Source: a virus
Length of the DNA stretch: 24,360 bases
IMG/VR virus record: IMGVR_UViG_3300025300_000094
Location: 1-24,360 of that record
Strand: one strand, 5' to 3'
Shown: one piece after another, positions 712 to 16,699 of the stretch
How the letters are laid out: every line of letters starts with the position of its first letter
How positions within the stretch are numbered: the first letter of the stretch is position 1
Program-made: the position numbers and the translations under genes
Notes under the pieces: model-generated
The model's database searches: none
Seen by the model: the letters and a program-made list of their open reading frames with translations, nothing else
Told to the model about the DNA's origin: nothing

Positions 712-2294
712 TCCTGGTTGGTAACGTCATAGAGAAGTTGTCGGAGATACGTGAAACTGTGCAGACGTGCGTGACGAGTCCTCCGTATTGGGGTCTGCGT
801 GACTACGGGGTTGAGGGTCAGCTTGGCCTTGAGAAGACGCCGCAGGAGTTTGTGGCGAATATGGTCGAGGTGTTTCGGGGTGTGAGGCGGGTGCTTCGGG
901 ATGATGGGACGCTGTGGCTGAACATCGGGGATAGCTACGCCTCGCAGCGAGGCGGAACACACCAACCAGCAGAAACCCTTGCGGGTGGCGTTGGAGGCAA
1001 AACTGAATCTGGCGCACGGGTCAACAGGTCCAGACACGACGGTTATAACCCAAGCCGTAACGCATCTGCGTTTGGGTTGAAGCACAAAGACCTCTGCCTC
1101 ATCCCTGAGAGGCTGGCGATTGCCCTTCAGGACGACGGCTGGTGGATACGCTCCCGTATCGCGTGGTGCAAGAAGTCGAGTATGCCCGAGAGCGTGACGG
1201 ACAGACCGACGTCGGCGTGGGAACACATCTGGCTTCTTACGAAGAGTGCCAAGTATTACTACGACGCAGAGGCCGTGAAGACGTCGAACGGTGCCAACCT
1301 CCGCAACTACTGGGTGTTAGGCCCCGAGCCGCTTAATAGTGCCGTCGTCTATGGCAGCTATCGCATAGCGTCAGCAAATTGTCGAGTGCATGATTGTCAG
1401 GCTTACCTGGAGCACGCTCTACGAGGTGGTGAACTACAAGTCTCTTCTGGTCCTGCCCACAGTCTTGGCATTGATGCCCGTCCCGATCAAGGGCAAGAAG
1501 GCGTTGCTTACGCCATACGCGAAGATCAGTACGGGTTTCTTTCTGATGTGTCTTTTGCCACTTCCCATAGCAACGAAATCCGCAGAATGGCCGATCAGTT
1601 AGCGCGGCGTGGGACTTCCGACGATAAATCTTCTCCCCACACTGAGTGCATTTCAGAGTCACACCATTCTTCCGCCACTTCCGACCACACTCCCGAGAGC
1701 AATACTTCGGGGGGTGACGCTTCAGATGGGACGGCGACTTGTCCTTCGGCTCAAACTCACGACCACATTCTTGGCATTGCAACATTTGAACCTCCTCCTG
1801 ACGGGTGTACCTGTAAATATCGGGGGAAGGTCGAAAAGAGACAAGACCATTATGCGGCCTTCCCCTCAGAGATACCCCGACGCTGCATCAAGGCCGGGAC
1901 GAGCCAGAAGGGGGCCTGTAGTGAGTGTGGGGCACCGTGGGAGAGGGTGACAGACAGGGAGCCAAGCCAATATGCTCAGGGCATGACGACGAGGACGCAC
2001 CGTGACGACACACAGCCGGGGAATGTTGGTAACACCCGCAACGAGAACGGCATTGTCCCCTACCTCAAGCCCGTGCAAGCTACCACCACCGGCTGGCAAC
2101 CCACCTGCGACTGTGACGCCGAGGTCGTCCCTTGCACCGTGCTGGACCCCTTTCTCGGAAGTGGGACGACCGCTGCCGTAGCACAGGAACTTGACAGGGA
2201 GTGGGTGGGCATAGAACTCAACCCCGAATACGCAGCACTGGCAGAGAAGCGCATAGCCTCTGTCGGGGCACCGCAGATCGGGCTGTCGATATGA
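708..2294 (+). CDS. Beta-class DNA methyltransferase (N4-cytosine or N6-adenine) with a ~171-residue in-frame insertion
   Basis: The enzyme transfers a methyl group from SAM to an exocyclic amino group on DNA, probably to protect phage DNA from restriction. I chose ATG 708, which overlaps the upstream stop as ATGA and gives the family-typical opening MILVGNVIEKL; an in-frame ATG at 663 is less likely. Motif IV is TSPPYWG at residues 23-29. LWLNIGDSYA and the SRIAWCKKS stretch follow. Motif I is DPFLGSGTT at 480-488, followed by WVGIELNPEYAALAEKRI. The order IV then I marks the beta class. A cysteine cluster (CSECG, later CDC) precedes motif I. Between NLRNYWVLGPEP (ending at base 1332) and HYAAFPSEIPRRC (from about 1846) lie about 171 residues unlike a methyltransferase. 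That DNA encodes an HNH endonuclease on the other strand. The reading frame stays open throughout, so the enzyme may tolerate the insert as a loop. Whether it is active cannot be told. Confidence 0.85.
   Translation: MILVGNVIEKLSEIRETVQTCVTSPPYWGLRDYGVEGQLGLEKTPQEFVANMVEVFRGVRRVLRDDGTLWLNIGDSYASQRGGTHQPAETLAGGVGGKTESGARVNRSRHDGYNPSRNASAFGLKHKDLCLIPERLAIALQDDGWWIRSRIAWCKKSSMPESVTDRPTSAWEHIWLLTKSAKYYYDAEAVKTSNGANLRNYWVLGPEPLNSAVVYGSYRIASANCRVHDCQAYLEHALRGGELQVSSGPAHSLGIDARPDQGQEGVAYAIREDQYGFLSDVSFATSHSNEIRRMADQLARRGTSDDKSSPHTECISESHHSSATSDHTPESNTSGGDASDGTATCPSAQTHDHILGIATFEPPPDGCTCKYRGKVEKRQDHYAAFPSEIPRRCIKAGTSQKGACSECGAPWERVTDREPSQYAQGMTTRTHRDDTQPGNVGNTRNENGIVPYLKPVQATTTGWQPTCDCDAEVVPCTVLDPFLGSGTTAAVAQELDREWVGIELNPEYAALAEKRIASVGAPQIGLSI
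1333..1785 (-). CDS. HNH homing-type endonuclease, antisense inside the DNA methyltransferase gene
   Basis: A complete 150-residue protein reads on the minus strand. Its N-terminal half has four CxxC-type pairs (C4/C7, C29/C33, C46/C49, C68/C72), suggesting zinc ribbons or knuckles for DNA binding. The C-terminal half is a classical HNH nuclease: RDGHQCQDCG at 101-110, the catalytic VVHH at 117-120, DNLLTLCDSCH at 135-145, and a final H149. Translation is well supported by AGGAGGAGG on the minus strand (plus-strand bases 1791-1799), 5 bases from the ATG. The stop codon falls exactly at the left junction of the insertion in the methyltransferase. HNH genes of this kind are usually selfish elements that cleave alleles lacking them. 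Sitting antisense while leaving the sense frame open is unusual. The call as an HNH nuclease is firm; homing is inferred. Confidence 0.9.
   Translation of the reverse strand: MLQCQECGREFEPKDKSPSHLKRHPPKYCSRECGRKWRKNGVTLKCTQCGEKIYRRKSHAALTDRPFCGFRCYGKWQKTHQKETRTDLRVWRKQRLLALDRDGHQCQDCGQDQKRLVVHHLVERAPGKPDNHALDNLLTLCDSCHRRRHY
1791..1799 (-). promoter_or_regulatory. Strong Shine-Dalgarno of the antisense HNH gene
   Basis: The minus strand reads AGGAGGAGG, then TTCAA, then the ATG of the HNH gene. This is a near-ideal ribosome binding site with 5-base spacing. It argues that the antisense frame is a translated gene and not a chance shadow. No convincing minus-strand promoter was seen just upstream. 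Confidence 0.8.
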
Positions 2295-2308
2295 CGATAG
2301 GAGATAAC

Positions 2309-2476
2309 ATGAGGGATGCTATGGCTACAGTATTCGAGGCCACCAAAGCCCGCGCTGTAGCCCTGTGTGAGAAGATGGCGCGTAGTGGCCAGAAGCACGG
2401 AGCCAGCAAGGAGTTTGTAGCGGGAGCCTATGCGGCAGCTGAAATTGTTCGGGATATGACCGAGGAGGAGCGATGA
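2309..2476 (+). CDS. Small hypothetical protein, 55 aa
   Basis: Not recognised. I prefer ATG 2309 because AGGAGAT lies at the right distance upstream (2297-2303). An alternative in-frame ATG at 2291 overlaps the methyltransferase stop as ATGA and would add six residues. The protein is alanine-rich and helical (MATVFEATKARAVALCEKMARSGQ ... AAAEIVRDMTEEER), without membrane segments or metal motifs. The end overlaps the next start as ATGA and carries that gene's Shine-Dalgarno (GGAGGAG). It is part of the early accessory operon. Confidence 0.6.
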   Translation: MRDAMATVFEATKARAVALCEKMARSGQKHGASKEFVAGAYAAAEIVRDMTEEER

Positions 2477-2706
2477 GGCCAGTAGGCCTAAAGGATACGA
2501 GAGAGGGCGGGATGACAATAGAAGACCTCAAGCAGAACCTGCGCCAGGCCGCAAAGAACCTCGCGAAGGCGCGAACCGTACAGGATCGGGAGAAAGCCCT
2601 GAATGACGAGGCCAGTGCCCGCACGGCCTACTCCCGGGCATGGACGAGCAGACTCTACAAGCTCCCCCATGCCGTCATAGACCGTATCAACAGAGACTTG
2701 GGGTAA
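2473..2706 (+). CDS. Small hypothetical helical protein, 77 aa
   Basis: Not recognised. Start ATG 2473 overlaps the previous stop as ATGA and follows GAGGAGGAG. An internal ATG at 2512 could serve but has a weaker site. The central part (TIEDLKQNLRQAAKNLAKARTVQDREKALNDEA) is highly charged with heptad-like repeats, suggesting a coiled coil, and is followed by a short basic-hydrophobic tail ending in AVIDRINRDLG. No catalytic motif is visible. Confidence 0.6.
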   Translation: MRPVGLKDTREGGMTIEDLKQNLRQAAKNLAKARTVQDREKALNDEASARTAYSRAWTSRLYKLPHAVIDRINRDLG

Positions 2707-2759
2707 CGGAGAACGGGGATGGTGAGGATGTCCTGGTCTACGGCTACGAGAAGCAATAG
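2640..2759 (+). CDS. Possible small overlapping ORF, 39 aa
   Basis: This frame begins with an ATG inside the preceding gene and continues through the 62-base gap to a TAG at 2757-2759. Its second half (VTENGDGEDVLVYGYEKQ) has a protein-like composition, while the first half, in the overlap, looks like out-of-frame sequence (CRHRPYQQRL). There is no clear ribosome binding site. It may be a tiny gene, the relic of one, or chance. Confidence 0.2.
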   Translation: MDEQTLQAPPCRHRPYQQRLGVTENGDGEDVLVYGYEKQ

Positions 2760-2768
2760 GAGAGTGAC

Positions 2769-3374
2769 GTGGAACTACGGGGCCAAAGAGCCAGAGCTGC
2801 CATGACTGAGGAGACTCTTGACCTTGAGGTCAATTATCTCAAGTGCTGCCTCGAGCCTCACGATATGACGGTATTCATGCCGGTTTTGCGAGCCTATGCC
2901 CGGGAGTGCGCGACGATTGCGGAGCTGGGAGTCAGGAAGGGCATGTCTACGATAGCCCTTCTTGCGGGGCTGCCGGCAGGTGGGAAGATGCAGTCCTTCG
3001 ATCAGGATCTGTGTGAGAATGCCGAGGCCCTGGAGGCTATGGCGGAGGGTGTGGGCACCAGGTGGATATTCCAGCAGTGCGACATCTATGACCTGCATCC
3101 GTGGCCGCTCAAGCCGGATCTGCTGTTTCTGGACTTCAACCACACGTATAAGGGCGTTACCACGCAGCTCGTTGAGTTTGGGAGCACGGCAAGGCGGTGG
3201 ATAATAGTTCACGATACGGTGTCATTTCCCGATGTTCGAGTGGCCATCGCTGACTGGCTGGCGGAGGCGGAGCAGCGGTGGGAGATAGAGCGGGAATATT
3301 GCGAGGGTGAGGGACTTGTGGTTCTCAGGAGGGAGCATGGCCGAGACGCCGGGAAGCGCGAAAATCCCAGATAA
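2769..3374 (+). CDS. Class I SAM-dependent methyltransferase, Methyltransf_24-like
   Basis: The protein has a Rossmann-fold SAM site, IAELGVRKGMST (residues 50-61; E52, G54 and G58 form the ExGxxxG motif). KMQSFDQDL follows as the next strand, then PDLLFLDFNHTYKGV, where the DFNHTY segment matches the D-x-x-H-x-Y pattern of this family. WIIVHDT comes near the end. This pattern is typical of small-molecule, sugar or cephalosporin-hydroxylase-like methyltransferases, not of DNA methyltransferases, as no SPPY or DPPY motif is present. I chose GTG 2769 because AGGAG lies at 2758-2762; ATG 2802 is an alternative that lacks a good site and would drop an unconvincing basic stretch. The 3' end overlaps the HNH gene by 38 bases. 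Its substrate is unknown; it might modify a sugar added by the glycosyltransferases further down. Confidence 0.7.
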   Translation: MELRGQRARAAMTEETLDLEVNYLKCCLEPHDMTVFMPVLRAYARECATIAELGVRKGMSTIALLAGLPAGGKMQSFDQDLCENAEALEAMAEGVGTRWIFQQCDIYDLHPWPLKPDLLFLDFNHTYKGVTTQLVEFGSTARRWIIVHDTVSFPDVRVAIADWLAEAEQRWEIEREYCEGEGLVVLRREHGRDAGKRENPR

Positions 3375-3681
3375 TCGCATTAAAACGGACCCCAAAGCCT
3401 CCGAGCTGTCGCAGGAGGTGATTTTGGCCCTTCTGGCGTCGAAAAACAAGCCGAATCCCAAGGATCGCGGCAAATACGAGAAGACCGAGCACTTCAGACG
3501 CCTGAAAGCCGCCGCCCTCGCGCTCTACAGGTCGTGCGTCTTGTGCAATGGGACGAAAAACCTCGTCGTGCATCACAGAAACTACCTAAATCTCTTTCAG
3601 GAGCACCTGACGGAGGACGTTGTCGTAGTTTGCAACTTCTGCCACGGCAAATATCACCGCGGACACCGAGGAAGATCATGA
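3337..3681 (+). CDS. HNH endonuclease next to the packaging genes, 114 aa
   Basis: I start this at ATG 3337, preceded by AGGAGGG at 3326-3332. The first 60 residues are polar and basic. The HNH core is SCVLC (C67, C70), LVVHH (H79, H80), an acidic turn (LTEDV), then VCNFCHGKYH (C99, C102, H103, H107). Four cysteines would hold a structural zinc and H79/H80 are the metal and catalytic residues. HNH proteins coded beside terminase genes are a known component of phage packaging, as with HK97 gp74, where they stimulate terminase cutting. The position just before a terminase nuclease domain fits that role, though a free-standing homing nuclease is the alternative. It overlaps the neighbours at both ends. 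Confidence 0.8.
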   Translation: MAETPGSAKIPDNRIKTDPKASELSQEVILALLASKNKPNPKDRGKYEKTEHFRRLKAAALALYRSCVLCNGTKNLVVHHRNYLNLFQEHLTEDVVVVCNFCHGKYHRGHRGRS

Positions 3682-4091
3682 GCACACCTAAAGTCAGCGT
3701 CACAAGACCCGAGCACCTCGTTCCCGGGGGCGTTTACCGCCTTTTTGGCTCCGAGGAGGGCAAAAACATACCTCCCCAGGCCATTCGCGTCGAATCTTCC
3801 GTAAAATACCGCGGAATCCTCGATACGGGGCATGTCGAGGTCACCTGGTTCACCGATTTGGGGGTTCAGGGTAAGCACAAGCATCGGGGGCTCCTCTTCC
3901 TTTCCGAGGTAAACATCCCCGAGCACGGGCATCACGACAGGCACCTTGAGAGAGTGTCCAGTGAGGAGCTCGCAAGGGCCGCGCAGGAGATGATGGGCGA
4001 GAATCGGAAGCAGGAGTATACCGAGATGGCCACGGACGACGAGGACTACCAGAATATGCTTAATGGTCGGACCAATAATGGCGGCAATTGA
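3678..4091 (+). CDS. Hypothetical protein, 137 aa
   Basis: Not recognised. Start ATG 3678 overlaps the HNH stop as ATGA, with GAGGAAG at 3668-3674. Residues 10-85 look beta-rich (LVPGGVYRLFGSEEG, IRVESSVKYRGIL, HVEVTWFTDLG, HRGLLFLSEVNIPEHG), as in a small barrel or SH3-like fold. The C-terminal 50 residues are charged and helical (RVSSEELARAAQEMMGENRKQEY), ending in an acidic Asn-rich tail. Its place between an HNH nuclease and a terminase nuclease might suggest a packaging accessory or small-terminase function, but no helix-turn-helix is evident. Confidence 0.65.
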   Translation: MSTPKVSVTRPEHLVPGGVYRLFGSEEGKNIPPQAIRVESSVKYRGILDTGHVEVTWFTDLGVQGKHKHRGLLFLSEVNIPEHGHHDRHLERVSSEELARAAQEMMGENRKQEYTEMATDDEDYQNMLNGRTNNGGN

Positions 4092-4653
4092 CGCTCCCAT
4101 CCTCCATGTGGGCGTAGATATTGGCTATCGAAGGGACACAAGTGCCGTTGTCGCCATGTACCGCCACCCCGAGTGGAACCAGCACTGCCTCTTCTGCCAT
4201 AAGGCGTGGACGCCACCTGTCCACATTCCCAATGTGACGGCCTACGTCCGCCTCCTCCTGTCCAAGGAGCGGGTTGCCGGCGTGTGGTTCGATCCCCACC
4301 AGTGGGCGGCGGAAGCCCAGCACCTTGCCGGGGAGGGATACGACCATCAGTTGCAGGAAGTGCAGCAGTCTGGCAGTTTCATGGTGGCCATCGGCAATAA
4401 CCTCTCAAACCTGATGCAGCGCGGCAACTTCCTGCTATACAAGAATGCGGAGGTGAGGAATCACTTCTCCTGGTGCGCCGCCAAGGCTACTGAGCGGGGA
4501 TACCGCATTGTCAAGCAGGATCAGTCGAAGCCCATAGACATCGTCGTGGCTATGGCCATGGCGGCGTGGGGGTCTTCTCAGGATCTTTCGCATATGACGC
4601 ATCCGACTTATGACCGGTCGGTGCATTCTGTGGGAGTGTTGGACCTTGCCTGA
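4063..4653 (+). CDS. Terminase large subunit nuclease domain, standing alone
   Basis: The protein matches the RuvC/RNase H-like nuclease of phage large terminases, which cuts concatemeric DNA during packaging. The first strand HVGVDIGYRRDTSAVVAM supplies D19. VAGVWFDPHQWAAEAQ supplies D77. The late segment VKQDQSKPIDIVVAMAMAAW supplies D159. These three aspartates fit the two-metal active site. The typical EVQQ...NNLSNLMQRGNFLLY...EVRNH segment lies between. The usual N-terminal ATPase domain (Walker A, Walker B) is missing from this gene and from every other gene in the window, so the terminase looks split. Start is uncertain: ATG 4063 overlaps the previous gene by 29 bases, and ATG 4078 is the alternative. 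Neither has a strong Shine-Dalgarno. Length is 196 residues against 450-600 for a full enzyme. Confidence 0.75.
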   Translation: MVGPIMAAIDAPILHVGVDIGYRRDTSAVVAMYRHPEWNQHCLFCHKAWTPPVHIPNVTAYVRLLLSKERVAGVWFDPHQWAAEAQHLAGEGYDHQLQEVQQSGSFMVAIGNNLSNLMQRGNFLLYKNAEVRNHFSWCAAKATERGYRIVKQDQSKPIDIVVAMAMAAWGSSQDLSHMTHPTYDRSVHSVGVLDLA

Positions 4654-5416: not shown

Positions 5417-5726
5417 TATGACCCTCGCCGACCTCTACCCCACCCTCGACTGGAGCACCTTCGAGGAAGATATTTCCGATCAGTCTAAGCAGGGCCTTCT
5501 CGACTGCGCCCTCTACATGCGAGCGTGTGCTTCTGATACCTGCAACTGGAAGGGTGTGCGCGAAGACAGCGGCATGGAATACTCCGCGTGTGCCTACTGC
5601 GGAGGCCCCCTGGTTGACGATCACGAAGCCCGCGAGCAGTTTCGCAAGCGCCTTGGAAATGTCTGGATACAGGTGCTGGGATGGCTCAAGGCACAAGGTC
5701 TTGTGGTCAATGGAGTTGACAAGTGA
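5406..5726 (+). CDS. Small cysteine-rich, zinc-ribbon-like protein, ~106 aa
   Basis: Not recognised as a named family. The likely start is GTG 5406 (AAGGGGG nine bases upstream) or ATG 5418; both overlap or abut the previous stop at 5416. Cysteines C-x4-C (CASDTC) and, about 20 residues on, C-x2-C (CAYCGGPL) followed by DDH could form a treble-clef or zinc-ribbon site. The C-terminus is helical and aromatic (RKRLGNVWIQVLGWLKAQGLVV). The last codons carry the -35 box of the promoter that serves the portal operon. Confidence 0.6.
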   Translation: MATDMTLADLYPTLDWSTFEEDISDQSKQGLLDCALYMRACASDTCNWKGVREDSGMEYSACAYCGGPLVDDHEAREQFRKRLGNVWIQVLGWLKAQGLVVNGVDK

Positions 5727-5745
5727 GATAAATATTCCTTATATT
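5716..5745 (+). promoter_or_regulatory. Near-consensus sigma70 promoter upstream of the portal operon
   Basis: A perfect -35 box TTGACA (5716-5721) is followed by an 18-base spacer and a -10 box TATATT (5740-5745, one mismatch to TATAAT). The local DNA is AT-rich in an otherwise GC-rich genome. Transcription would start near 5752. The -35 box lies in the last codons of the gene before. It is the clearest promoter I can see in the window and would drive the leader RNA and the head operon. Confidence 0.65.
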
Positions 5746-5751
5746 CGCATT

Positions 5752-5854
5752 TAAACCCCACTGGACGAGAAAATCCACACCCCCTATGGACCGTCCTGAA
5801 GTAACGACCGATGTGCGGATCGGGCGCAAGCCTGTGCCGTTGTTGGTCGTTTTT
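5752..5854 (+). ncRNA. Candidate structured leader or small RNA before the portal gene
   Basis: This transcript would run from the promoter at 5716-5745 to an intrinsic terminator. Two foldable elements are visible. The first pairs GGACG (5763-5767) with CGTCC (5792-5796), with an inner TCCA/TGGA helix. The second pairs AACGACC (5803-5809) with GGTCGTT (5845-5851) and contains CGG/CCG and the GNRA-capped hairpin CGGGC-GCAA-GCCTG (5821-5834). No convincing coding sequence occupies it. I do not recognise it as a known riboswitch or sRNA class. It could be a free sRNA of about 100 bases or an attenuated leader. Confidence 0.35.
5803..5854 (+). terminator. Intrinsic terminator-like hairpin in the portal leader
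   Basis: A 7-bp outer stem (AACGACC with GGTCGTT) encloses an inner GC-rich hairpin with a GCAA tetraloop, and a run of five T (5850-5854), then CTTT, ends it. This is the usual form of a rho-independent terminator. The 5' arm can also pair with 5863-5874 (GGTCG, bulge, TTAC), which would compete with the terminator, so read-through could be conditional. Confidence 0.45.
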
Positions 5855-5857
5855 CTT

Positions 5858-5919
5858 TGCCTGGTCGTAGTTACCAAATGAGGGCCGCACCCCTCCGGTG
5901 CTGCGGTCAGGCATTTTTT
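5858..5919 (+). terminator. Second terminator-like structure just before the portal RBS
   Basis: TGCCTG (5858-5863) can pair with CAGGCA (5908-5913), which is followed at once by six T (5914-5919). Between them CCGCA (5885-5889) can pair with TGCGG (5902-5906). The closing helix spans a 44-base interior, so this is a weaker prediction than the first hairpin. The portal Shine-Dalgarno begins three bases after the T run. Confidence 0.3.
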
Positions 5920-5933
5920 ACAAGGGGCACCTC

Positions 5934-8417
5934 TTGGCAGCACAACCTCCCGGTGGCAATGGCAATGGCGCTCTTCAGGGTCTGGATCTCTCCAGCCTCC
6001 TTGGCGAGATGTCGGGTCCTCAAAATGGTGAGGCCACAGGCCCCGAAGAGGTGCGCCAGGCTCCAACCTTCCCAGAACCGGAACCCCTGAAATACGATAA
6101 GACGGAGCAGCAGGACATCGCCGATATGTGCGTCCATCTCTACGACAATGGCGTCATTGCCCGCAATGTCTGGGCCGGCAAGCACCAGCTCTACGATCAG
6201 ATGTTCCGAGGTCGGGTTGAGGAGTTTGCAAACAGGACTGGTCCTTGGCCGGGGTCTTCGCACCTCCATGTGCAGATGCCCTACTGGCTGGTGGATGCCC
6301 TGAATGCGCGCCTCGTTCACACCCTCTGGAACCAGATGCCCCTCGTTCAGGGGGTATGGGAGGAAAACGACGATCAGGAGGTTGCCAGGGATGCCGCACA
6401 GCTTGTAGAGTGGCACCTGCAGCCCAAGCGCGCCAACGTCCGGGAGATGTGGTCGCGGGCCTCCAAGATCCGCCTTATCCACGGCAGCTCCGTATCTCTG
6501 ATATCCTACGTCAATGACAGCTTCCGCTATCGCGTGACAACGCCGCTACCGGAGGTGGCCACCCTCTTCAACGATGAGTTCGCCATTGACGAGGATACGG
6601 GGGAGCCCATAGAGGTTGCTGGCGAGGAGCAGGAGACGACGATAGAGGAAGGACCCCTGTATCGGGGTCCCGTTGTATATCCCCTTGAGTGGGATGACGT
6701 CGTTGCCCCCATAGGGTGCATGAACCTTCAGCCCCTGCGGATGAAGAACCCCGGAGGTGCCGACTGGGTGTTCGTCAGGCACTTTGAGACTCTCAGCCAG
6801 ATGAAGAAGAAGCACAAGGCCGGTATCTACTCGGAGATGTATGCCGACGACAGATACGAGGCTGATGCTGATGAGGGCATCAAGGACTGGTGGGTAGACA
6901 ATGCCGGCGACCAGACGCGAACGGGGCAAGGTGGCAGCCAGAACAACCAGCGCGTGCGCCAGCAGGATCAGATGGATGGCAACAACAGGTCGCAGGCCCA
7001 AAACCGAGCGGGCACACAGGAGCAGCGCAAGAATCCCGAGTTCGAGATACTGACATACTACGGGGCCTACAGACACCCCGACACGGGAGAAGACGAGGAG
7101 GTGGTATTCTTCGTCGCCAAGGACATGCCGAGGATTTTCCTCGGGGGCTTCATGCTCACCGACTTGGTATGGACCGGCGACAGGCCCCTGATGGAGATGC
7201 ACTACCAGACGCTCTCCAATCGCTTTTACTCTATGGGCGTCATGGAAATTGTGGAGCACCTGTCCGAGGAGCTCGACACCATCCACAATATGCGCGTGGA
7301 CGTGGGCATCGCCACGAACCTCCCGTGGTACTTCGTGCGGGCCTCCAGCTACATAGATCCCTCAACCATCGTCCTGAAGCCCCTGCAGCTTGTGCCTGTT
7401 GATGACCCCCGCGATATCGTCGCCCCGCAGGTGCAGAACGTCACCAGCTTCTACCACCAGGAAGAAAGCCTCCTGCTTACCATCATCGAGAGGGTGATGG
7501 GCATTACGGATCTCTTCCTTGGCATTTCGCCGCAATCGGGTGCAAGTGCGCGCCACGCCACAGGTTTCCTCGGAACAAAGGCAGAAGCCGAGGCAAGACT
7601 CGCCCAGCCCCTGTCGCAAGATGCCGAGAGCTTCTCCTTTATGGCGCGCATTATCTACAACCTCGAGATGCAGTGGGGGCCGCGGGAACGCAGCTTCCGC
7701 CTTGAGGGTGAGCGGTCGGCAGTATCCCGCGAGGGGCTGACACGCGACGACCTCTGGTTTCGGGGGATGTACGACTTCCGCCTTGGGGCCAACGTGGGGA
7801 TGATGTCGCAGCAGAACAGGTTCCAGCGCTCCCAGCAAGCCTTTCAGTTTCTCAGCCAGAATCCCCTGGTTACGCAGGACATGGGAAGACTATGGCAGGT
7901 GACCGCCGAAGTCCTCAGATCCATGGGATACCGCGATTACGAAATTGAGGAGTTCATAGGCCCCCATACCTCCGTATCGGCGGGAACCCTCAAGGATCAG
8001 GACGAAGAGCTCGCGCAGATGATCGAGCACAAGTTCGGACCGGGAACGCCCGCACCCATTCATCCTGGCGATAACGACCGTGACCATATGGACAAGATTA
8101 CGCTATTCCTGAATGGCCCCATCTGGGGAACTATAGACAACCCCAATGCGGAGCGGGCTATCAATGCCCACTACCAGCAGCACGCCCAGGCCGAGCAGCA
8201 GAAGAAGATGCAGCAGCAGCAGGGCGCGCAGCAGCAGATGACGGGACAGGGGCAGCAGCAACCACAACAGCAGGGGGCACCGCAGGGAGGTGCCGACCTT
8301 GCCAATCGAGCTGCGGCGCAGATACCCTCAGAGTCGGGGGTCAGCAACTTCGCGCAGACCTATCAGGCGCAGACCGCCAACAGTGCATCGGGCGGACCTC
8401 CGAACCTCGGACAGTAA
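5934..8417 (+). CDS. Portal protein, ~827 aa
   Basis: Portal proteins form the dodecameric ring at one head vertex through which DNA enters and leaves. The identification rests on the region WYFVRASSYIDPSTIVLKP through VTSFYHQEESLLLTIIERVMG and TDLFLGISPQSGASARHATG (middle of the protein), which resembles the stem and clip region of large podoviral portals. TDLVWTGDRPLMEMHYQT and FYSMGVMEIVEHLSEELD come just before. The last 100 residues are very rich in Gln (QQQQGAQQQ repeats), typical of the portal barrel or disordered tail. I start it at TTG 5934, preceded by AAGGGG at 5922-5927, giving the natural opening AAQPPGGNGNGAL; GTG 5898 in the terminator region is an alternative. Length is large for a portal but fits short-tailed phages. 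Confidence 0.85.
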   Translation: MAAQPPGGNGNGALQGLDLSSLLGEMSGPQNGEATGPEEVRQAPTFPEPEPLKYDKTEQQDIADMCVHLYDNGVIARNVWAGKHQLYDQMFRGRVEEFANRTGPWPGSSHLHVQMPYWLVDALNARLVHTLWNQMPLVQGVWEENDDQEVARDAAQLVEWHLQPKRANVREMWSRASKIRLIHGSSVSLISYVNDSFRYRVTTPLPEVATLFNDEFAIDEDTGEPIEVAGEEQETTIEEGPLYRGPVVYPLEWDDVVAPIGCMNLQPLRMKNPGGADWVFVRHFETLSQMKKKHKAGIYSEMYADDRYEADADEGIKDWWVDNAGDQTRTGQGGSQNNQRVRQQDQMDGNNRSQAQNRAGTQEQRKNPEFEILTYYGAYRHPDTGEDEEVVFFVAKDMPRIFLGGFMLTDLVWTGDRPLMEMHYQTLSNRFYSMGVMEIVEHLSEELDTIHNMRVDVGIATNLPWYFVRASSYIDPSTIVLKPLQLVPVDDPRDIVAPQVQNVTSFYHQEESLLLTIIERVMGITDLFLGISPQSGASARHATGFLGTKAEAEARLAQPLSQDAESFSFMARIIYNLEMQWGPRERSFRLEGERSAVSREGLTRDDLWFRGMYDFRLGANVGMMSQQNRFQRSQQAFQFLSQNPLVTQDMGRLWQVTAEVLRSMGYRDYEIEEFIGPHTSVSAGTLKDQDEELAQMIEHKFGPGTPAPIHPGDNDRDHMDKITLFLNGPIWGTIDNPNAERAINAHYQQHAQAEQQKKMQQQQGAQQQMTGQGQQQPQQQGAPQGGADLANRAAAQIPSESGVSNFAQTYQAQTANSASGGPPNLGQ

Positions 8418-15301: not shown

Positions 15302-15424
15302 GTTCTCAGACAACGGCACTACGGGGACGCTCATGCCTACAGAGACGGTATCTGTGGGCATGAGCTTGCCGCCGACTACGACAAGCACATCAACAAATAT
15401 ATCTTCGAGGAGCTTATGCGATGA
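15302..15424 (+). pseudogene. Protein-like open stretch without a start codon (possible gene remnant)
   Basis: The 128-base gap before the first glycosyltransferase has one open frame with a natural-looking C-terminus: HAYRDGICGHELAADYDKH, then INKYIFEELMR and a TGA that overlaps the next ATG as ATGA. No ATG, GTG, TTG or CTG occurs upstream in this frame before the stop at 15299-15301. It could be the remnant of a deleted gene, an unusual start, or chance shaped by the 37-base hairpin it contains. Confidence 0.25.
15329..15365. repeat. 37-base inverted repeat / stem-loop
   Basis: GCTCATGCCTACAGA (15329-15343) is the reverse complement of TCTGTGGGCATGAGC (15351-15365) over all 15 positions apart from one G-T wobble, with a 7-base loop GACGGTA. 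No T run follows, so it is not a classical terminator. It separates the structural genes from the glycosyltransferase pair and could be an RNA processing or stabilising hairpin or a protein-binding palindrome. Confidence 0.85.
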
Positions 15425-16251
15425 ACGTCATGATGCGCCTGATGACTCGCGGTGACGCTATGCCCTCGTCAATAGCGCGCATGCAATGGTGTCGCTCCCA
15501 TGGCTGGGATGCTGACATGCACGTCAACAAGGTGGGCATAGACATCGCACGGTCGGAGGTCATCGCCAAGGCCCGCGAGAGCAATGCCGACTACCTCATT
15601 ATGGTTGATGACGATGTCGTCCCTACTGATCGGATACTCAGGCTCCCCGAGCACGGTGTTCCCGTAGTTTCGGGGTGCGTGCCCTCCTGGAGTTTCGGCA
15701 AGCTCTTCTGGTGCATCTTCGACCTTGACGAAGACGGCACCTACAGATCCGTTACAGACTTCACCGAAGACCATTCGCTACAGCAGGTATACTCAGTGGG
15801 GGGAGCGCTTCTATGTATCAGGCGCGATGTCTTAGAGGACACGTCGCAAGATCCCCTGTTTCTGTTCCGGCGAAACTCCGACGGGACAGTGGCGCACTTC
15901 GGCGGCGAGGACTGCCACTTCTGCCAGAAGGTCCACAGGATGGGATATCCGATTTACGCAGACCCGGGGATGGTGGGGGAGCATACGCCACGCATCGAGC
16001 TGGTCAGAACACTGGTGGAAAATGCAGATCCTAATACCGACGGTGGGCTTATCACCGTGGCTCGCTACGACACTCGCCAGTATGGTTGCGAGCTACCCGT
16101 CAGTGACTCCTACCGTCGTATGCGCGAGCAGCGACGCGGAGACGACGGACCTCCTCCTGAGCCAGCCGTGCAGCCCCCTGTTTCCGAGCGAGCCACTAAC
16201 GTGGACGGAGGCAGTGAACTACGGGCTGCATCATTTGGGAGACGAGGATGA
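15421..16251 (+). CDS. Glycosyltransferase, GT-A fold, 276 aa
   Basis: The enzyme should move a sugar from a nucleotide-sugar to an acceptor. Evidence: GIDIARSEVIAKARESNADYLIMVDDDVVP, with the DxD-type metal site DDD at 63-65. VYSVGGALLCIRRDVL (about 123-137) is followed by HFGGEDCHFCQKVHRMGYPIYADPG (159-183, GGED) and GEHT at 186-189, the conserved late histidine. Residues beyond 200 are a Pro-, Arg- and Glu-rich tail that lies in the 230-base overlap with the next gene, so that tail may be dispensable. No strong Shine-Dalgarno precedes ATG 15421. The acceptor could be a phage surface protein, host cell wall or modified DNA; nothing in the sequence decides. Confidence 0.8.
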   Translation: MNVMMRLMTRGDAMPSSIARMQWCRSHGWDADMHVNKVGIDIARSEVIAKARESNADYLIMVDDDVVPTDRILRLPEHGVPVVSGCVPSWSFGKLFWCIFDLDEDGTYRSVTDFTEDHSLQQVYSVGGALLCIRRDVLEDTSQDPLFLFRRNSDGTVAHFGGEDCHFCQKVHRMGYPIYADPGMVGEHTPRIELVRTLVENADPNTDGGLITVARYDTRQYGCELPVSDSYRRMREQRRGDDGPPPEPAVQPPVSERATNVDGGSELRAASFGRRG

Positions 16252-16699
16252 TGTCGTAGTCTGCAATGACGACATTGCCATACTTACACCGCAGTGGCTG
16301 GACGTATGGCAAGAGCACCTCGACACCAAGCGCGGAGCAGTGGGGGCCATAGGCCCCATTAGCAATAACGTCTTGAACATGCAGAGGATCGGATACCGTG
16401 CCGCGGAGATTCAGGCACTTCCATTCATCAGCTTCTTCTGTGTTTGTCTGGCAAAAGAAGCCCTGCAGGCGGTGGGTGGCCTGGATGAGCGTTTTGGCAA
16501 CGGCCCTTTTGACGATCTGGATTGGAGCGAGAGAGCCAAAGCCGAAGACTTCATACTTCTTGTAGACCGGAGGGTGTGGGTGTGGCATTACGGGAGCCAG
16601 TCAATGGAGAGGTCGCCGGATTCCCAGGACAGGGCGGCAGCCCGAGCCTTGTTGGTGAAGAAGCACCCGACGGTCGAGGAGCATCTTCCCCCAACTTAA
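16022..16699 (+). CDS. Second glycosyltransferase, GT2-like, 225 aa
   Basis: A different GT-A enzyme that begins 230 bases inside its neighbour. The N-terminus MQILIPTVGLSPWLATTLASM and SVTPTVVCASSDAETTDLL look like the first two strand-helix units of GT2 enzymes, so the early start is likely to be real. WTEAVNYGLHHL is followed by DVVVCNDDIAILTPQWL (NDD metal site at 82-84), GAIGPISNN, FCVCLAKEALQAVGGLDERFG, the DDLDW pair at 164-168 and VWVWHYGSQS with H189. GGTGG precedes the start by about four bases. Together with the gene before, it makes a two-enzyme sugar-transfer cassette. Confidence 0.8.
   Translation: MQILIPTVGLSPWLATTLASMVASYPSVTPTVVCASSDAETTDLLLSQPCSPLFPSEPLTWTEAVNYGLHHLGDEDDVVVCNDDIAILTPQWLDVWQEHLDTKRGAVGAIGPISNNVLNMQRIGYRAAEIQALPFISFFCVCLAKEALQAVGGLDERFGNGPFDDLDWSERAKAEDFILLVDRRVWVWHYGSQSMERSPDSQDRAAARALLVKKHPTVEEHLPPT

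Follow-up and report, generated by a model that had tools for sequence, protein, structure and literature searches.

Most of what is known about when temperate phages express their late genes comes from protein antitermination of the lambda type. In that system the Q protein acts at the qut site within the pR' promoter, and RNA polymerase then reads through the terminator cassette (PMC6266700). As this terminator lies between the promoter and the late genes, late expression needs read-through. Contacts between RNA loops are used in other systems. Antisense attenuators begin by loop-loop kissing with a hairpin of the leader that they control (PMC4878617), and phi29-type pRNAs assemble via loop-loop contacts (PMC5340915). 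The put RNA of HK022 has a length of about 70 nt and contains a pair of stem-loops (PMC9378689). Here we describe a putative conditional terminator in the leader of a phage structural operon that shares features with each of these systems.

The window, by which we mean the whole 24,360-nucleotide stretch of DNA that was analyzed, is a 24.4-kb virus fragment that contains terminase fragments, a portal gene, and a capsid gene. On its plus strand is a sigma-70-type promoter, TTGACA-N18-TATATT (5716-5745), with the -35 element at 5716-5721, the -10 element at 5740-5745, and an 18-nt spacer between them. It matches 11 of the 12 sigma-70 consensus positions, and no other site in the window scores so high. 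The first gene downstream of the leader is that of the portal (5934-8417, plus strand), which was recognized through PHROG 332 (1e-10) and PHROG 1216, a portal family (1e-7). Its translation signals (5922-5936, plus strand) comprise a Shine-Dalgarno sequence, AAGGGG, at 5922-5927 and a TTG start at 5934 that is backed by aligned starts in the relatives L003, L005, and L007. By tblastn, the window portal shows only 26.6% identity to two spring-water phage records, and a search with the DNA of 5600-6100 gave no match to named phages. Other genes of the region are also of note. The large terminase appears to be split into an ATPase-like part (1378-2376 in L007) and a nuclease-like part (4063-4653 in the window, 3903-4466 in L007), with an HNH endonuclease-like gene (3307-3681 in the window) sitting between the two (L007 region 1378-4466). 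Two glycosyltransferase-like genes lie amid structural genes at 15421-16699 of the window, the first below the Pfam cut-off and the second without a Pfam match.

Directly upstream of the leader is a small conserved ORF (5418-5726, plus strand) whose end overlaps the -35 element. A motif in its product, TLxDLYxxLDWS, is kept ahead of the portal promoter in many relatives. The product also has cysteines resembling a zinc ribbon, which the window clade retains and which are missing in L150 and L151. We regard this ORF as a doubtful candidate for a Q-type antiterminator, given the missing zinc ribbon, the lack of a Pfam or PHROG match, and PDB fold matches that were poor and not confident (best E 0.07); the window in which it was found is a fragment. 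Among the proteins scanned, no Q-like or other anti-termination protein was identified and no phage RNA polymerase was recognized.

The predicted leader RNA spans 5752-5919 on the plus strand (about 165 nt, with its start placed from the promoter) and is highly structured. The initial annotation, which was made from the sequence alone, had pointed to the promoter, to a structured leader ahead of the portal, and to three hairpin stems, and all of these are present at the predicted places. It had also suggested thermodynamic folding and an Rfam search. The fold of 5752-5921 has an energy of -72.3 kcal/mol, far better than that of shuffled sequence (z -5.47, with 0 of 200 shuffles as good), and z-scores in the relatives L003-L007 range from -6.2 to -8.7. 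The Rfam search found no family at gathering score, the best sub-threshold match being at chance level (13.8 bits vs 80). The 5' hairpin, P0 (5763-5796, plus strand), is formed by GGACG/CGTCC (arms 5763-5767 and 5792-5796), and a P0-like hairpin is found in most lineages but is absent in L007. It is followed by the first terminator-like hairpin, H1 (5803-5854, plus strand), with the stem AACGACC/GGTCGTT (arms 5803-5809 and 5845-5851) and a T5 tract at 5850-5854 that overlaps the 3' arm. The second terminator-like hairpin, H2 (5858-5919, plus strand), has arms at 5858-5870 and 5901-5913 and a T6 tract at 5914-5919 that stops two bases 5' of the Shine-Dalgarno sequence. The initial annotation had rightly drawn a TGCCTG/CAGGCA stem followed at once by T6 but had understated it, as the stem is at least 13 bp long. 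Neither H1 nor H2 was listed as a whole hairpin by a generic terminator scan, which considers only an uninterrupted stem with a loop of 3-8 nt.

Two smaller hairpins lie within these structures. An alternative fold for the 5' arm of H1 is the hairpin H1a (5808-5823, plus strand; stem CCGAU/AUCGG, loop GUGCGG), and H1a and the closed H1 stem are mutually exclusive. The apical hairpin of H2, H2a (5880-5895, plus strand; stem GAGGG/CCCUC, loop CCGCAC), has a pairing probability of 0.82-0.98 in six of the seven lineages that carry the element. In L007 the closing pair as drawn reaches only 0.03, and the fold favors an 8-nt loop on a shorter stem. The loop of H1a, which we call L1 (5813-5818), is complementary to the loop of H2a, L2 (5885-5890).

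Scans based on the portal, the capsid, and the small ORF identified the whole element in seven lineages, namely the window (with the near-identical L002), L003, L005/L006, L007, L150, L151, and L154, and the window portal shares 55-86% identity with those of the other six. The order of promoter, H1, H2, and portal is kept in all seven, and the TTGACA promoter is conserved in L003, L005-L007, L150, L151, and L154. The H1 stem is rebuilt with other bases in L150, L151, and L154, the stem pairs of H1a covary across lineages, and T-rich terminator tails are found in every lineage, with that of L151 the weakest. Even the near-identical contigs L005 and L006 differ by a U to C change in the H2 5' arm (L005 position 484) that turns a U.G pair into C-G and keeps the stem. 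Most matches to a loosely defined DNA pattern for H1 were due to chance and the pattern was discarded, and a stricter one returned only the known lineages. Scans for prophage copies in GTDB genomes found none. The 39.8-kb relative behind L007 encodes an integrase, a Cro/C1-type regulator, and a tRNA-Arg gene, and we therefore regard it as temperate-type. This tRNA-Arg (CCG) gene (L193 10882-10958) lies beside the integrase gene and is a likely attachment site.

More distant relatives retain only parts of this arrangement. L140, L174, and L205 have the promoter and a single strong terminator close before the portal, and L175, L178, L180, and L181 have TTGACA close to the portal without terminators. 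The promoter is thus kept with one terminator or none, suggesting that it most likely serves the portal operon, and by this comparison the terminators look like control added to it. Kissing loops of the same design were sought in L140, L156, L174, L205, and L207, and none were found. In L140 (about 1134-1265) and L205 (about 2126-2281), a short basic ORF of some 43-51 codons lies between promoter and terminator, in the place that the kissing RNA occupies in the window clade.

The complementarity of L1 and L2 is maintained while their letters change. The pair is GUGCGG/CCGCAC in the window, an exact complement, GUGCUG/CAGCAC in L003, GUGCAG/CUGCAC in both L005 and L007, whose loops are identical, GGAUAGG/CCUAUCC in L150, GGGUAGG/CCUACCU with one G-U in L151, and GAGCAG/CUGCUC in L154. 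The seven lineages thus carry six distinct pairs of 6-7 nt loops, every one of them complementary, and at the six positions shared by all lineages 42 of 42 cells are Watson-Crick. When L2 was reassigned among the lineages, this count was reached by only 2 of 5040 arrangements, the true one and the swap of the two identical loops. Some such loop pair arises, per lineage, in 2.8-7.9% of dinucleotide shuffles and in 1.7-5.7% of structure-preserving shuffles, against seven of seven real lineages, and when the window itself was tiled, 15 of 285 tiles contained one. At these rates a single lineage proves nothing, and the case rests on all seven having the pair in the equivalent position while its letters change. 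Since the lineages are related, multiplying their individual rates does not yield a probability, and the set is small, with four of the seven sharing most of the loop. The complementarity is limited to the loops and does not extend as antisense. The 3' side of H2 also has a copy of the L1 letters in L003 and L005, giving L2 a second possible partner there, and is without one in the window and L007, and L1 matches L2 in every lineage. In L150 and L154, the H2 5' arm contains L1 a second time.

The initial annotation had read the leader as a conditional attenuator or a small RNA gene, and the conserved order of promoter, terminators, and portal, together with the covariation, agrees with that general view. 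The switch that it proposed between the two 5' arms, in which 5801-5809 pairs with 5863-5874, did not survive comparison. The pairing exists in the window and is not conserved, as L003 and L006 have a C (GGCCGT) opposite A, in L006 through the U to C change that sets it apart from L005, and nothing comparable is present in L150, L151, or L154. Compensatory changes are found in the stems and in the L1:L2 loops instead, and the conserved alternative is the predicted local hairpin H1a within the 5' half of H1, its loop complementary to the apical loop of H2.

Folding calculations indicate when such a contact could act. At equilibrium, the form with H1 is better than that with H1a by 9-21 kcal/mol before kissing energy is counted, and isolated L1:L2 duplexes have energies of about -8 to -10 kcal/mol. 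The gain from H1 is thus similar to or greater than the likely energy of a 6-7 bp loop-loop helix, so L1:L2 is unlikely to win on one finished molecule, and these energies disfavor cis pairing as the prevailing state once the RNA is complete. During transcript growth, H1a is the predicted structure for 4-18 nt in five of the seven lineages, after which H1 takes over; in L150 and L151, H1a never reaches a probability of 0.5. With H1a predicted to be transient, an effect on RNA still being transcribed is favored over a stable fold like that of pRNA, and if L1:L2 is active, these calculations suggest that it most likely acts on nascent RNA within a short time window. Pairing within the same molecule cannot affect H1, because RNA polymerase is already beyond H1 when it makes L2, and in the window clade L1:L2 pairing does not open H2.

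On these grounds we prefer to interpret the leader of the late (structural) operon as a conditional terminator in which L1:L2 loop pairing controls H1, and we give this interpretation a probability of about 0.45, carried mostly by a conditional-termination leader with functional loop pairing and less by the direction of the effect and the step in trans. The conditional-termination step is suggested by layout and conservation, and the covariation suggests that L1 and L2 meet. A host-type promoter would start transcription about 180 bases before the portal, and H1 and H2, as tandem intrinsic terminators, would halt most transcripts ahead of the portal ribosome site, making the late genes dependent on the leader. 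In the emerging RNA, the 5' arm of H1 would fold first as H1a, which must be undone before H1 can form. L2 of a finished leader RNA could then pair with L1 of a nascent one, holding H1a and weakening H1, and the contact would thereby promote read-through. It is tempting to extend this to a late switch made only of RNA that counts its own product, although we think such a switch rather improbable. As phage genomes multiply, leader RNA that had ended at the terminators would accumulate and display L2 at the apex of H2; by kissing L1 of new nascent leaders it would hold H1a and let RNA polymerase enter the structural genes. Both terminators would be opened by this one RNA in L150 and L154, where H2 contains L1 a second time. 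In the part of the literature that we covered, no phage late leader with kissing terminators was found. If true, our interpretation would imply that phages so far known only through metagenomes can time the late step by RNA, and the leader may be a source of natural parts comparable to engineered transcription-activating RNAs.

Other explanations have to be weighed against conditional termination by loop pairing. Promoter and terminators could correspond to pR'-tR', with a phage antiterminator protein allowing passage and the loop pairing a mere structural detail. The layout is the same, promoter and single terminator are kept without kissing loops in L140, L174, and L205, and the relative behind L007 is temperate-type, all in favor of such protein control, which we nevertheless consider unlikely: the proteins scanned include no Q-like candidate, the small ORF having no family match and no zinc ribbon in L150 and L151, and the covariation of L1 and L2 would go unexplained. 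Alternatively, the 5752-5919 RNA may itself be the product, a stable small RNA that its kissing loops either make compact or join into multimers, as in phi29 pRNA. Such a gene would have its own promoter and terminators, as seen here, and would yield an RNA of about 165 nt, similar in length to phi29 pRNA, with complementary loops that change in step amid sequence drift; its place between terminase and portal might even hint at a packaging role. We nevertheless consider this improbable, since the stable fold sequesters L1 within H1 and leaves it unavailable for multimers, distant relatives have promoter and terminator without the RNA, and no Rfam family matched at gathering score.

It is also conceivable that two ordinary terminators simply end upstream transcription, the promoter and the loop complementarity having no regulatory meaning. 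Strong terminators are common between gene modules and a chance loop pair is expected at 2-6% per lineage, but plain insulation of this kind is quite improbable given a conserved promoter upstream of the terminators and loops that covary in six sequence pairs. Lastly, the hairpins might protect or pace the portal mRNA by blocking decay or ribosome access rather than by terminating transcription. The end of H2 and its T tract two bases 5' of the Shine-Dalgarno sequence would suit this role, but both hairpins have T tracts, which neither decay nor translation control would need, making it very improbable.

Conditional termination by loop pairing can now be set beside the systems described at the outset. 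The leader resembles HK022 put in that a phage transcript has two hairpins close to its 5' end and in the proposed read-through of terminators without a dedicated protein, while put acts on early transcripts, stays bound to RNA polymerase, and is not known to have kissing loops (PMC9378689). The layout differs as well, and the hairpins here are terminator-like with T tracts of their own, so we do not classify the leader as a put element. With phi29-type pRNA it shares two complementary loops whose sequence varies between phages (PMC5340915). In pRNA, however, a three-way junction presents the loops in exposed positions, where they join one molecule to another, whereas L1 is buried in H1, the stable fold of the leader is without such a junction, and this RNA is part of the leader of a late operon, all of which place it outside the pRNAs. 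The likeness to lambda pR'-tR', where 6S RNA is made, lies in a sigma-70 promoter followed by intrinsic terminators before a late operon, here recognized from sequence features; the differences are that no Q-like protein was seen among the proteins scanned, that the hairpins are in tandem with covarying loops, and that they lie directly before the portal. Compared with attenuators of the pT181 type, there is no separate antisense RNA, as L2 is in the same transcript and on the same strand, the complementarity ends at the loop, and the effect that we propose is anti-termination. The leader nonetheless recalls these attenuators, where loop contact with the 5' hairpin of a nascent leader decides the fate of an intrinsic terminator (PMC4878617), a parallel that here consists of loop complementarity and the mutual exclusion of H1a and H1.
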